A stretch of DNA of 36,614 nucleotides from Flavobacteriales bacterium (GTDB lineage: Bacteria; Bacteroidota; Bacteroidia; CAIKAF01): positions 1 through 36,614 of the forward strand of contig JAOABX010000006.1 of assembly GCA_026418175.1 (NCBI GenBank), in the 5' to 3' direction. This document shows positions 30,765 through 35,817 of the stretch, piece by piece (the first letter of the stretch is position 1; every line of letters begins with the position of its first letter). The notes below the pieces were generated by a model that did no database searches, had not been told where the DNA came from, and saw only the letters and a program-made list of their open reading frames with translations. The position numbers and the translations under genes are program-made.

Positions 30765-31531
30765 AAAACAACCTTTAATGGATACAATACAGGTTTTGAG
30801 GGCGAGGCATCGTTATGGAAAGAGGCAATTTGAAGGTTAAGTAAATACAAACCGTCAGATACATAATCCGGTACAAAAATCAGCTCTGTAATGGTTGCAT
30901 CTGTAACCGGTTGATGCGGATAATTCCAAAAAGCATGATGTGCTGCCAATACCCCTTCATCTTCTTCCCGATCTACCGAAGGTAAGTCAGTGAGCCAATG
31001 TTTAATACCAACAGTTCTTAGCCAAGCTCCCACGGCATCTTCAAAATACGGTGGGTTTGTATTTGAATAATTTCGAGTTTTTTTTCCTATATCATTGGGC
31101 AGTGTACGGATTATAATAGCCTCTACTCCAGTTAAATCTCCTGCAAGACTTTTAACTTGGTTTAATGATATACGACGATCACCTCCAGGAATGTGTTGGG
31201 GTTCTATGCTTATAAGCTTGGCCAAAAAGAAAAAGGACTTCAGGCATTCGTTCACTGAAAAAAATTCACTGGATATGTGGCCTACACACTCGGTATGCGT
31301 TCCGTGTCCATGAGGGTTAAAAAACACGTCCCTAAAATTTACGCTCCCCCCCCTGACCACATCGCCAATAAAAAATTCATTTTCAACTGCCCGAATTACT
31401 ACCGGACCGCAATACCAAGCTGTGGGATTAGAAGTACCATTTTGGAGTGGCAACGAAAGATCATACGGTTTTGAAAGATCTGCCTCAAACGAATATATAT
31501 TATTGATTATTTGAAACTTAAGTTGATTCAT
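30761..31531 (-). CDS. Cyclase family protein (metal-dependent hydrolase)
   Basis: A 256-residue protein of the cyclase/kynurenine-formamidase-like family (PF04199). The metal-site block reads NPHGHGTHTECVGH, where KynB-type enzymes have HxGTHxDxPxH; Glu replaces the usual Asp. A second block, AAHHAFW with TITELIFV, supplies the later His and Glu. The start at 31531 (MNQLKFQ) is chosen; the frame reaches 31585 but that extension is Cys-rich and unlike the family. The substrate is unknown and no kynurenine pathway genes are nearby. The stop overlaps the start of the decayed YjbR gene by four bases (ATGA), so the two were once co-translated. Confidence 0.85.
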   Translation of the reverse strand: MNQLKFQIINNIYSFEADLSKPYDLSLPLQNGTSNPTAWYCGPVVIRAVENEFFIGDVVRGGSVNFRDVFFNPHGHGTHTECVGHISSEFFSVNECLKSFFFLAKLISIEPQHIPGGDRRISLNQVKSLAGDLTGVEAIIIRTLPNDIGKKTRNYSNTNPPYFEDAVGAWLRTVGIKHWLTDLPSVDREEDEGVLAAHHAFWNYPHQPVTDATITELIFVPDYVSDGLYLLNLQIASFHNDASPSKPVLYPLKVVL

Positions 31532-31627
31532 AAATAAATTTCCATGATTTTGAGCTACTAAATTAACATTGTTTGAACAGCACATGCAACCCTAATTATT
31601 ATATTTACATCTATATATTTAGTTTGT

Positions 31628-31837
31628 ATGAAAATTAGCTTGGCATTGATATTTGGATTGTTTTTGTTAAAGTGTGATTCTCAAAAGGTTAAAGATTGCA
31701 AAGGAGAACCCAAACCGGATCAAATGTGTACCATGGATTACAATCCGGTATGCGGTTGTGATGGGAAAACATATTCAAATGCTTGCCGGGCTGATGCAGA
31801 AGGAATAAAACATTGGACCCAAGGAGAATGTAAATAA
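31628..31837 (+). CDS. Kazal-type serine protease inhibitor lipoprotein
   Basis: A 69-residue exported protein. The N-terminus [16 protein letters not shown] ends at Cys16 in a lipobox-like LLKC, with Lys at -1 where Ala, Gly or Ser is usual, so lipidation is uncertain. The mature part is one Kazal domain: six Cys including [20 protein letters not shown] and a final GEC, the standard PVCGxDGxTYxNxC signature. Kazal domains inhibit serine proteases by tight binding. It lies directly before the sigma factor gene (0 bases between stop and TTG) and is probably co-transcribed with it. Placement with an envelope sigma/anti-sigma pair suggests a role at the cell surface. Confidence 0.85.
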
Positions 31838-32404
31838 TTGCTGACTAATTTGGAGAATCTAGAAGAAATAATCAACGGATGCATAGCCGGTAAACGATTG
31901 GCACAAAACACTTTTTACAAAATGTTTGCGCCAAAAATGTATGGGGTTTGTCTTCGCTATGCCAAAGATTCAACTGAAGCAGAAGATATTTTACAAGATG
32001 GATTTATCAAAGTATTTCAACATATGGGGTCTTTTAAACATGAAGGATCATTCGAAGGTTGGGTTCGTCGAATTATGATAAATACTGCGTTAGAAAGATT
32101 CCGTAAAAAAAATCCCTTGCTTCCGGTTGGCGATATTTATCCGGTAGCTAAAAACATGAAATACGATGATATAGAAAGTAATATTTCTGCCGATGAATTG
32201 CTTGCACTGGTGCAAAAACTACCTCCCGGATATCGCACAGTATTTAACCTGTACGCCATAGAAGGGTATTCGCATCAAGAAATTGGTGAAATGTTGAATA
32301 TCAGCGAAGGAACGTCGAAATCCCAATTAGCAAGAGCAAGAGCTGTTTTACAAGAAGAAATTGCCAAACTATACAAACCTGTTCAAAAAAAAATAGTTAG
32401 CTAA
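31838..32404 (+). CDS. ECF RNA polymerase sigma factor
   Basis: A sigma-70 family factor of 188 residues with region 2 (AEDILQDGFIKVFQHM, FEGWVRRIMINTALERFRK) and region 4 (LPPGYRTVFNLYAIEGYSHQEIGEMLNISEGTSKSQLARAR). No ATG precedes region 2; the frame opens with TTG at 31838, preceded by AAGGAG at 31821-31826, one of the few Shine-Dalgarno-like sites in the window. A second TTG at 31850 is an alternative. The anti-sigma protein gene follows after 5 bases, so the pair is a co-transcribed sigma/anti-sigma module. Confidence 0.93.
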   Translation: MLTNLENLEEIINGCIAGKRLAQNTFYKMFAPKMYGVCLRYAKDSTEAEDILQDGFIKVFQHMGSFKHEGSFEGWVRRIMINTALERFRKKNPLLPVGDIYPVAKNMKYDDIESNISADELLALVQKLPPGYRTVFNLYAIEGYSHQEIGEMLNISEGTSKSQLARARAVLQEEIAKLYKPVQKKIVS

Positions 32405-32409
32405 ACTGA

Positions 32410-34056
32410 ATGGAAAAGAAGTTTACAAATATTGATGAGCTATTTAAAAACAAGCTGATGAACTATGAGGTAGAGCCTCCGGCTCATCTATGGAATAACA
32501 TCAGCCAAGAGCTCGACAATGCAGGAAATATTGACGACCTATTTAAAAAATCACTCCATGAAAATGAAGTTACGCCTCCGGCTTACGTTTGGGATAACAT
32601 CAACGCTTCGTTAGATAAACTAGATAACAAGCGCAAAAACCGAATTTGGTGGATGCTTGGCTCCGGAGCTGCAGTAATTATAGCGTTTATTACTGGATAT
32701 TTCATTGCAGATTATGTACAACAAAAATCAGATGTTGAACCAGTTTCAATAGCCCTGCATGAACAAAATAAATCTGATAAAGACTTATTGTTGGGTAAAG
32801 AAAATAACGTAACGCACCCACAAAACGTAACGAATAATCAAACGAAATCAGCGGTTGCAAATACAGGCAAATCAAATTCATCAAATCAAAAATCCGCTTT
32901 GTCTGCCAATACAACAACCGCTGTGAATTCACATCTAAACCCCCAAGGATTCAATACCAGCAATAAAAAGGGAAAGCCTACAAAAGCTAATTCTATCCAA
33001 GGTATTGCTGATAATAATAAGAATAATGGAACTGTTCAACGAAATTCATTCAATGAAAAACAACTCAATAAAGATGATAATGGTGTTGTTTTTGTGGATG
33101 AATCTCAAGAAAATATGTTAGTGAAGGAATCCATTAAAACAGACAACGAACTGGCTGTTACTAATAATAACAATCAAGAAACTGAAGAAACAGAAAAAGA
33201 GAATATTACTGTAGAAAATACTGAAACAACTAAGCAAGAGGCTAGTACAAAAAATCAAACTATTGATTTGTATGCCGATTTAGACCCTGTAAATAGTTAC
33301 TATCCTCTTTTCAGTGTTAGCCCATTCTTTTCACCCATGTATGCCATTCGAAATTCATTCAATAATGAAGAAAAATACGACCCAATTGCTCCGGGAGGTG
33401 ATGATCGGTTTAAGCATACTACTCGCTTTAGTTATCAAGCTGGGGTATTGCTCGGATATAACTTTACACGTAAAATAAGTATCCATATTGGATGCAGTTA
33501 TAACCAAATAACCCATTCAACTGGAAGAGGGCAGCTACAAACTATGCCCTTTAGCCAAGCTGGAATTTATGATTCAGCACTTACCGTTCAAACCAGTGCC
33601 GGAGAGCTTACAGGCATTAGTGTTGACCCAAATCTAGACAACCAAGAAATAGGCCCAACGATTAATATTGAACAAACATTACTTCAAAGTCCCATTCAAC
33701 AAGTAGTGCAAACCATTGGATTTATAGAAGTTCCAGTACTGTTTAAATACAGATTTGCCTCATCTCGGGTAGGATTCCTGCTTACCGGAGGTTTTGGAAC
33801 CGGATTTATCGTTCGTAACGATGCATTTGCAGAAAATCAAACAGAGTATGTTCGATTTGGCGAAACAGCGAATATCCGTAACGTCAATTTCAACCTGATA
33901 TTGGGAGCCGGAATGGATGTTCAAATTACTCCATGGATGTATTTTACATTTGAACCAACATTCCGTTATTCTCTGATGAACTGGAGCATGAAGGAGGATG
34001 TAAAAGTAAATCCAATTATGATCGGTGCGAATACCGGTGTATCGTTCAGGTTCTAA
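32410..34056 (+). CDS. Trans-envelope anti-sigma protein (cytoplasmic anti-sigma domain, TM, OM beta-barrel)
   Basis: A 548-residue protein. The cytoplasmic N-terminus holds two copies of one motif, IDELFKNKL...EVEPPAHLWNNI...LD (about 8-36) and IDDLFKKSL...EVTPPAYVWDNI...LD (about 41-69). A single membrane segment follows (about 79-101), then a long Asn-, Thr- and Lys-rich linker (about 105-290). The C-terminal beta-barrel (about 305-548, SYQAGVLLGYNFTRKISIHIGC to NTGVSFRF) resembles PorT-type outer-membrane barrels. This matches the dual membrane-spanning anti-sigma proteins (Dma) described in Bacteroides thetaiotaomicron. The order implies it binds the adjacent sigma factor in the cytoplasm and reports on the outer membrane. 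Confidence 0.85.
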   Translation: MEKKFTNIDELFKNKLMNYEVEPPAHLWNNISQELDNAGNIDDLFKKSLHENEVTPPAYVWDNINASLDKLDNKRKNRIWWMLGSGAAVIIAFITGYFIADYVQQKSDVEPVSIALHEQNKSDKDLLLGKENNVTHPQNVTNNQTKSAVANTGKSNSSNQKSALSANTTTAVNSHLNPQGFNTSNKKGKPTKANSIQGIADNNKNNGTVQRNSFNEKQLNKDDNGVVFVDESQENMLVKESIKTDNELAVTNNNNQETEETEKENITVENTETTKQEASTKNQTIDLYADLDPVNSYYPLFSVSPFFSPMYAIRNSFNNEEKYDPIAPGGDDRFKHTTRFSYQAGVLLGYNFTRKISIHIGCSYNQITHSTGRGQLQTMPFSQAGIYDSALTVQTSAGELTGISVDPNLDNQEIGPTINIEQTLLQSPIQQVVQTIGFIEVPVLFKYRFASSRVGFLLTGGFGTGFIVRNDAFAENQTEYVRFGETANIRNVNFNLILGAGMDVQITPWMYFTFEPTFRYSLMNWSMKEDVKVNPIMIGANTGVSFRF

Positions 34057-34088
34057 TTAAAACACAATAATCTTGTTACCTTCGCAGT

Positions 34089-34096
34089 TAGATTTG
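34089..34096 (+). promoter_or_regulatory. -7 box of the VWA protein gene
   Basis: TAGATTTG is a perfect TAnnTTTG ending 4 bases before the ATG at 34101. A TTG is present at 34073-34075 but only 13 bases away, too close for a standard spacer. Confidence 0.45.
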
Positions 34097-34100
34097 AATC

Positions 34101-35426
34101 ATGGCTGCGAAGGTTTTTTGTTTTATATCAGGGATATTATTGTGTTTCATTGCATTTGCCCAACAACGAGGCATTGTTTTTGAAAATACCATCGTTGATT
34201 TCGGTAATATAAAATCGTGGGACAACCCACCGGCAGTCTTCAAATTTGAAAACACCTCGTTTGATGCTCAGTATATTTTAGCCCCTAAAACCAGCCGAAA
34301 GATATCTGTTGACTATCCCCGAAACAAAATAGAATCTGCCGAAAAGGGAGAAGTTCGTGTTTTTTACTATACACATGAAACCGGGCCATTTTCTGAAGAT
34401 GTTATGTTGTATTACAGTGGAAGCAACACCCCCATAAAACTTACGATAAAAGGGAATATAAAATCGTTGGCAGATAATGCATTAACACAATGCCCCGATT
34501 TTAATCAATCTTCGAAAATCGAATTAAAAGAAAAATGGATCGAAGCCAAAGTTATTAACAAAATTACCAAAGAGCCTATTCCGCTTGTATTAGTAAACAT
34601 TGGTCGAGAAAAATTTTATTCTCAAAAAAATGGTGATGTAAAAGTGAAATTATATCCCGGTGTGTATGGTATATATGCACAAGCAGACGGATATCATCCT
34701 TTCTCTGAATTTGTAGGCATCAAAAACGATATGGGAACATTGATTATTGAAATGACTCCGCTAAACGTTCCATTAGTAAAAGATACCATTTACGAAGAAG
34801 AACCGATAGTAATAAAAGACAGCATTCCCATACTTCCAGATGAAAAACCAGAGTTTTCTTACCGTGAATATAAAGCCAATCACATTGTGCTATTGCTGGA
34901 TGTCTCTGGCTCGATGAAACAACGGGGTAAAATTGATTCCTTAAAGTTAGCAATACGCACGTTGGCAGAAAATCTGCGAAGTGTTGACAGGGTTACACTT
35001 ATCACATTTGCCTCTAAAACGAATGAATTATTGATAAATATACCAGGAGACAATAAAGATTTAATATTACCCGTCGTAGAATCGTTAACGGCCAAAGGTA
35101 CTACTGATGGTGTTTTAGGTATTGAAAAAGCCTATCAGCATGCTTTTAATTATTTTATTCTGGGTGGAAACAACCAGGTAATTGTTGCTACTGACGGAAT
35201 TTTTAATAGCCCCAAATATTCTGAATCGCAACTTTTACTAATGATAAAATCTTTTAGAAACAAAGGAATTAAATTATCGGTTATCGGATTTGGTAAAGAA
35301 AAAAATGCCATAAGTGCCATGCAAAAAATGAGTACAGAAGGGGGGGGAAATTATATTTCATTTAGCGAAAATAATAACGTAAAAAAATTACTTTTGGAAG
35401 AAATTAAAAACCAATCAAAACGTTAA
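34101..35426 (+). CDS. VWA domain protein with DUF1573-like and carboxypeptidase-regulatory-like domains
   Basis: A 441-residue exported protein. The signal peptide ends near FAFAQ/FIAFAQ (about residue 21). The first domain (about 22-125, VFENTIVDFGNIKSWDNPPAVFKFENTS) resembles the DUF1573/ASPM-SPD-2-hydin Ig fold. A CNA-B or carboxypeptidase-regulatory-like domain follows (about 150-215, AKVINKITKEPIPLVLVNI). The C-terminal VWA domain (about 260-435) has a complete MIDAS: D267-x-S269-x-S271, T334/T335 in KGTTDG, and D365 in ATDG. Such proteins bind divalent metal and partners at the cell surface. Partners are unknown; a lipoprotein gene follows after 4 bases. Confidence 0.85.
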   Translation: MAAKVFCFISGILLCFIAFAQQRGIVFENTIVDFGNIKSWDNPPAVFKFENTSFDAQYILAPKTSRKISVDYPRNKIESAEKGEVRVFYYTHETGPFSEDVMLYYSGSNTPIKLTIKGNIKSLADNALTQCPDFNQSSKIELKEKWIEAKVINKITKEPIPLVLVNIGREKFYSQKNGDVKVKLYPGVYGIYAQADGYHPFSEFVGIKNDMGTLIIEMTPLNVPLVKDTIYEEEPIVIKDSIPILPDEKPEFSYREYKANHIVLLLDVSGSMKQRGKIDSLKLAIRTLAENLRSVDRVTLITFASKTNELLINIPGDNKDLILPVVESLTAKGTTDGVLGIEKAYQHAFNYFILGGNNQVIVATDGIFNSPKYSESQLLLMIKSFRNKGIKLSVIGFGKEKNAISAMQKMSTEGGGNYISFSENNNVKKLLLEEIKNQSKR

Positions 35427-35430
35427 AGCT

Positions 35431-35817
35431 ATGAAAAATCAATTATCTCTTTTCATTATTGCTGCTCTATTACTATTTGCCTGCAAAGAAAAAACAAAGC
35501 TATCCATTGATGATAATGACATGATAATTTTAACCTATACCCGAGACACGGTTGAATATTTTGATAGCTATACTTTATGCAAGGTAATGATTCCTAAACT
35601 TGACAATAAAAAGATTATAGAATTATTTGAAAGTATTTACGATAAAAAAATTCAACCCGGCAAAGGTGAACGCTTTGGGCATATTTCTTTTTATGATAAA
35701 GCTACAGATACCTTGAAATATGAAAAATTAATAGACTATGATACTCCTGATCAAACAGCAAAAAAGTTATTAAATCTACTTGAAAAGGAATGCGAAGACG
35801 GAGTTATTCAAGAATGA
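35431..35817 (+). CDS. Lipoprotein of unknown function
   Basis: A 128-residue lipoprotein (lipobox LLFAC, Cys18). The mature part is acidic and Lys-rich with a strand-helix pattern (MIILTYTRDTVEYFDSY, KIIELFESIYDKK, KKLLNLLEKECEDG). No known domain was recognised. It lies 4 bases after the VWA protein gene and is probably co-transcribed with it; the convergent Ppx/GppA stop is 9 bases away. Confidence 0.65.
   Translation: MKNQLSLFIIAALLLFACKEKTKLSIDDNDMIILTYTRDTVEYFDSYTLCKVMIPKLDNKKIIELFESIYDKKIQPGKGERFGHISFYDKATDTLKYEKLIDYDTPDQTAKKLLNLLEKECEDGVIQE

Follow-up and report, generated by a model that had tools for sequence, protein, structure and literature searches.

Results and discussion

The open reading frame at 32410–34056 on the + strand of the window, the whole 36,614-nucleotide stretch of Flavobacteriales DNA analysed here, most probably (about 0.83, a figure that excludes stoichiometry) encodes an envelope-spanning anti-sigma factor of the Dma/Reo type in which a short cytoplasmic unit is functionally repeated. 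The unit adjoins 159 of 177 related sigma factor genes and always stands before the transmembrane (TM) helix, and proteins of the same plan restrain the neighboring sigma factor; these points together give the anti-sigma role strong indirect support. Anti-sigma factors are usually seen as one inhibitor per sigma factor. In the class described here, the number of presumed sigma-holding sites apparently differs from protein to protein. The features are as follows.

31585–31611, + strand: candidate ECF-type operon promoter, TGCAACC-N17-ATC (elements and spacing kept upstream of orthologous operons)
31628–31837, + strand: first operon gene, for a small Kazal-type serine protease inhibitor (Pfam Kazal_1, 6.6e-9; N-terminal signal, possible lipobox)
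31838–32404, + strand: ECF sigma factor, the presumed partner (Pfam Sigma70_r2, 2.9e-16; r4_2, 3.5e-18)
32410–34056, + strand: probable Dma-type envelope-spanning anti-sigma factor, 548 aa, ATG start (architecture, Pfam, AlphaFold2 model, fold match)
32428–32520, + strand: presumed sigma-binding unit, copy 1, about aa 7–37, helix-PP-helix (repeat alignment; family profile score 65; helices 8–17 and 25–37)
32527–32619, + strand: presumed sigma-binding unit, copy 2, about aa 40–70 (family profile score 58; dN 0.058 against the congener G001)
32635–32715, + strand: inner-membrane helix, about aa 76–102 (hydropathy peak 82–100; modelled helix 58–106)
32731–33294, + strand: disordered periplasmic linker, aa 108–295 (pLDDT < 50 throughout)
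33301–34053, + strand: 8-stranded outer-membrane barrel ending in ...GVSFRF (PF13568; OmpA-fold match, Z 15.7)
34101–35426, + strand: secreted DUF1573 + VWA protein, probably in the same operon (Pfam)
35431–35817, + strand: small protein with an N-terminal signal ending in Cys, 4 nt after the DUF1573 + VWA gene

Architecture of the protein

The two N-terminal motifs, NIDELFKNKLMNYEVEPPAHLWNNISQELD and NIDDLFKKSLHENEVTPPAYVWDNINASLD, align without gaps over 30 aa with a BLOSUM score of 94, while 20,000 shuffles reach at most 55. Neither Pfam nor NCBIfam holds a family for this N-terminal unit, and no class I anti-sigma family of the RseA/RsiW type was matched. The protein starts without a signal peptide. 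Its single strong hydrophobic segment (aa 82–100, mean hydropathy 1.93) is preceded by K/R-rich residues. In a full-length AlphaFold2 model built with 37 homologues, helices at 8–17, 25–37, 41–50, and 58–106 form two helical hairpins and a long helix that runs into the membrane. The linker that follows is disordered over about 188 residues, close to the 185 or so expected from the sequence-only reading and long enough to cross the periplasm; among 79 long relatives its estimated length is 111–222 aa (5th–95th percentile).

Eight long strands, most with pLDDT above 90, lie between residues 301 and 547 of the model. This region matches the Pfam family OMP_b-brl_2 (PF13568, 9.4e-10), a result that makes the earlier label "PorT-like" acceptable in the Pfam sense. 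The nearest solved structures are OmpA barrels (9a2m, Z 15.7 over 177 aa at 3.7 Å; crystal OmpA 1bxw, Z 14.0), and the protein has the eight meandering strands and the closing C-terminal strand with an aromatic end (...VSFRF) that are typical of OmpA. One TM helix, a long intrinsically disordered tether, and a C-terminal beta-barrel are likewise the marks of Dma proteins. The sequence-only reading had placed a pair of cytoplasmic motifs, one TM helix, a disordered linker, and a barrel in a single chain. All testable parts of that proposal were correct: the predicted structure contains both the barrel and the TM helix, and a Dma-type plan in one polypeptide, paired with the adjoining ECF sigma factor, is supported. 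A recent fusion or assembly artefact was considered and rejected, since G001 encodes a protein 71% identical to this one, again with both units in a single open frame.

The unit beside related sigma factor genes

Relatives of the sigma factor were gathered from named genomes as well as 247 sampled genomes of the class Bacteroidia, giving 177 distinct sigma genes. Since these were sampled by similarity to the window-type sigma, the percentages given here describe the sample and not all Bacteroidota. At a unit profile threshold of 20 (the maximum among shuffled sequences was 0.9), an adjoining downstream gene with the unit of about 29 aa was found at 159 of the 177 sigma genes. The unit precedes the TM helix in all 159 proteins, and no matches occur after the helix. 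One copy is present in 124 proteins, two in 31, three in 2, four in 1 (locus L024), and seven in 1 (locus L067), with a usual unit-to-unit spacing of 30–36 residues. The tandem motif pointed out in the sequence-only reading is therefore real but not peculiar to the window protein, as 35 of the 159 relatives (22%) contain two to seven copies. In the 124 single-copy proteins one unit makes up the entire cytoplasmic motif content, implying that one unit can serve. The seven-unit protein and the four-unit protein, in which three units are nearly identical, come from Saprospiraceae and Bacteroidetes metagenome-assembled genomes.

When mapped onto the sigma tree, possession of several copies requires at least 10 changes (about 32 with shuffled labels) and forms 13 pure clades; two clades, of 9 and 11 proteins, are multi-copy throughout. 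Multiple copies have thus been gained or lost many times, yet were long kept in some clades. In two-copy proteins the key positions are preserved in both units, with frequencies in copy 1 and copy 2 of 0.94 and 0.87 for W, 1.0 and 1.0 for I, and 1.0 and 1.0 for L. The mean family score of copy 2 is lower than that of copy 1 (35.6 vs 40.4, p 0.0005). This lower score, together with a degenerate copy 2 in two members of the same family as the window genome (G012 and G013, where the Trp is lost), suggests that copy 2 may be auxiliary.

The C-termini of the unit-bearing proteins are more varied. Among 90 long proteins, 64 end in a match to the OMP_b-brl_2 barrel and 17 in a match to CHU_C, a type IX secretion domain. 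The CHU_C-ending proteins, for example L015:703-2199 and L107:2039-3448, share the N-terminal unit and the TM helix and have no barrel. A unit protein anchored in the inner membrane and bearing a type IX signal could report on the type IX secretion system. PKD domains were matched in 12 of the 90. Another 54 complete unit-bearing proteins are shorter than 330 aa, too short to hold unit, tether, and barrel together. The unit provides a sequence handle on an anti-sigma class that Pfam and NCBIfam do not name, barrel-less forms included.

Copy number within the genus and family

Within the genus of the window genome (G000), two copies are present in G000 and G001 and one copy in G002 and G003. 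The same-family genomes G010, G012, and G013 also have two. Copy 2 of G000 is identical to copy 2 of G010 at 16 of 30 positions and to its own copy 1 at 12 of 30; with the single copy of G002 it shares 19 of 30, while copy 1 shares 14 of 30. These likenesses of copy 2 fit an older two-copy state from which one copy was lost in G002 and G003, although the comparison rests on 30 residues, too few to settle the ancestry.

Copy 2 of the window protein retains all hallmark residues. Only three residues differ between the second copies of G000 and G001 (dN 0.058) at saturated synonymous sites, implying strong purifying selection on copy 2. Between the same two proteins, identity is 30% in the linker and 94% in the barrel. 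Conservation against G001 is unusually high in the DNA at 32395–32522, over the start of the gene and copy 1, and extends to silent sites (pS 0.15, 38 codons); equally low windows appeared in 37 of 2000 codon permutations. The segment folds better than shuffled sequences (z -2.9), although in G001 one of the stem pairs is disrupted. No RNA family was matched in a search over 31400–34200.

Full-length and N-terminal searches of the window genome returned no other unit protein. A second related sigma gene (G000:C44:80321, L190) is followed by a gene for a 485-aa TM protein with a single, divergent, weak unit (score 12).

A proxy model of the sigma–anti-sigma complex

A read-through proxy was modelled, as the first 80 sigma loci contained no natural fusion of sigma and anti-sigma factor similar to Dma3. 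The operon translation of G010 (locus L007), from the same family, with two copies and 37% identity over the Dma protein, was selected; its sigma and dma genes are in frame, and a single chain results when the intervening stop is read as glycine. The AlphaFold2 model of this proxy has a pLDDT of 86.5 and a pTM of 0.75. The pLDDT is 93–95 in the copy 1 blocks, 70–76 in the first helix of copy 2, and 88–93 in its second helix.

The sigma domain pair of the proxy superposes on those of SigW-RsiW (151 aa, 5.0 Å), CnrH-CnrY (152 aa, 6.2 Å), and RpoE-NepR (143 aa, 5.2 Å), and is unlike the arrangement of promoter-bound sigmaE (26 Å). The modelled sigma factor would thus fit an inhibited-like arrangement, as seen in a model with an artificial join, a thin alignment, and one sigma per fused chain. 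AlphaFold may place the sigma domains in such an arrangement even without a partner. The fold matches, listed for the sigma residues, included no class I anti-sigma name for the two units.

Proposed mechanism and role of the two units

In the proposed mechanism, the barrel in the outer membrane would sense an outer-membrane or surface condition, and the disordered linker would pass the state of the barrel across the periplasm to the inner membrane. The cytoplasmic array of units would hold the sigma factor encoded upstream until its release, and the released sigma would then transcribe its targets, which probably include its own operon with the candidate promoter at 31585. The sigma-holding element is presumed to be the helix-PP-helix unit, of which one copy would suffice in most relatives and which is present here in tandem.

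An ordinary outer-membrane porin-family protein without a regulatory role is very improbable. Pfam does name the barrel alone; however, the start lacks a signal peptide, the N-terminal unit, TM helix, and adjoining sigma gene are conserved together across a class, and experimental systems of the same plan are described (PMC13088901, PMC9308784). It is also rather unlikely, if much less so, that the sigma factor is bound by one unit only, the other being a duplicate of recent origin or in decay that has no role of its own. The drift of copy number within the genus, the greater distance of copy 2 from the consensus, and the lost Trp in G012 and G013 agree with such decay. Against it are the strong constraint on copy 2 of the window protein with respect to G001, its intact hallmark residues, and the persistence of multi-copy states in the clades of 9 and 11 proteins.

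A serious competitor, with a probability somewhat short of even, is that both units grip a single sigma factor, for instance with one unit facing region 2 and the other facing region 4, so that the 1:1 hold would be tighter or more graded. The proxy, which contains one sigma, is compact (pTM 0.75) and has high confidence in copy 1 and the second helix of copy 2, and known short anti-sigma factors such as CnrY are described as engaging sigma4 through one helix and sigma2 through another (PMC7406223). A single unit, however, already consists of two helices and suffices in 124 of the 159 relatives, and arrays of four or seven units (L024, L067) are larger than a single two-domain sigma could need. 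For these same reasons, the most likely reading is that every unit forms a complete sigma-binding module and that the window protein offers two sites, either for two sigma factors or for a hold of higher avidity on one. In the particular case of the window protein, a grip of both units on one sigma is about as likely as this complete-site arrangement. A further extension, in which the unit acts as a self-contained bead, the copy number (1–7) sets how many sigma factors are held, one outer-membrane event frees several of them together, and expansion or contraction of the array tunes gain and threshold, is more speculative and would rank below the one-sigma grip.

A unit of about 29 aa that can apparently work alone, occurs in up to seven tandem copies, and differs in number between sister species makes the stoichiometry and gain of the sigma/anti-sigma pair testable. 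Natural one-copy and two-copy orthologues within one genus are available for this comparison.

Relation to known systems

The plan itself is already known from the Dma and Reo proteins. Dma1 and Dma2 of B. thetaiotaomicron, with the partners Das1 and Das2, are described as having an N-terminal anti-sigma domain, a TM helix, a long disordered tether, and a C-terminal barrel beside an ECF sigma gene, and were shown genetically to restrain the neighboring sigma factor (PMC13088901). The N-terminal unit is doubled in the window protein, whereas that source gives one N-terminal binding domain, a comparison made by description only. The Dma1 and Dma2 phenotypes reported there belong to B. thetaiotaomicron and are not transferable to the window organism, in which involvement in vesicle formation is not to be presumed. 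The Dma family adjoins ECF21 sigma factors; the sigma beside the window protein is certainly an ECF sigma by Pfam, and its presumed place in this group rests on the neighbor gene.

Reo, the partner of EcfO in B. fragilis and P. vulgatus, is similarly described as an envelope-spanning protein with an outer-membrane barrel, encoded downstream of its sigma gene, and in Phocaeicola it was genetically shown to restrain the sigma factor; it is thought to answer outer-membrane stress, with a regulon that includes NigD lipoproteins (PMC9308784, PMC13114119). Unlike the protein here, Reo is not described with a tandem unit in the available text of these two sources. The short class II domains of the CnrY type are also comparable, since a two-helix segment is described as enough to clamp an ECF sigma (PMC7406223) and the proxy sigma resembles CnrH in CnrH-CnrY. 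CnrY-type proteins differ in having no barrel and a single unit, and the likeness is one without a demonstrated sequence relation. The searchable text of the Dma/Reo literature contains no mention of a repeated unit; the founding PNAS 2024 Dma1 paper lay outside its scope, so this missing mention is no proof. What appears new, as no description was found within that text, is the variation in unit copy number.

Operon, candidate promoter, and neighboring genes

The anti-sigma gene belongs to a tight run on the + strand, in which the genes for the Kazal protein, the ECF sigma, the anti-sigma factor, the DUF1573 + VWA protein, and the small protein follow one another. The sigma gene, which has a non-ATG start (TTG at 31838 or at 31850), lies directly upstream of the anti-sigma gene, 5 nt before it. 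The start of the DUF1573 + VWA gene is also found after the anti-sigma gene in G001, G002, and G003. No Pfam family was matched by the small protein at 35431–35817.

The pattern TGCAACC-N17-RTC precedes the orthologous operon in G000, G001, G002, and G003 of the genus and in G010 of the same family. A search of the genome with this pattern returned 12 matches, against 5 for the reversed control, and the resulting regulon list was rejected because the pattern is too loose. One such site, upstream of the gene for a protein of about 100 aa, is common to all four congeners (L233, L234, L239, and L240), and this gene is a candidate second target of the sigma factor, judged from the sequence pattern.

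A Kazal gene stands upstream of the sigma gene in the five family members with two copies (G000, G001, G010, G012, and G013), and is missing at all other surveyed sigma loci, including those of the one-copy congeners G002 and G003. The Kazal protein might keep in check a protease by which the anti-sigma factor is cleaved.
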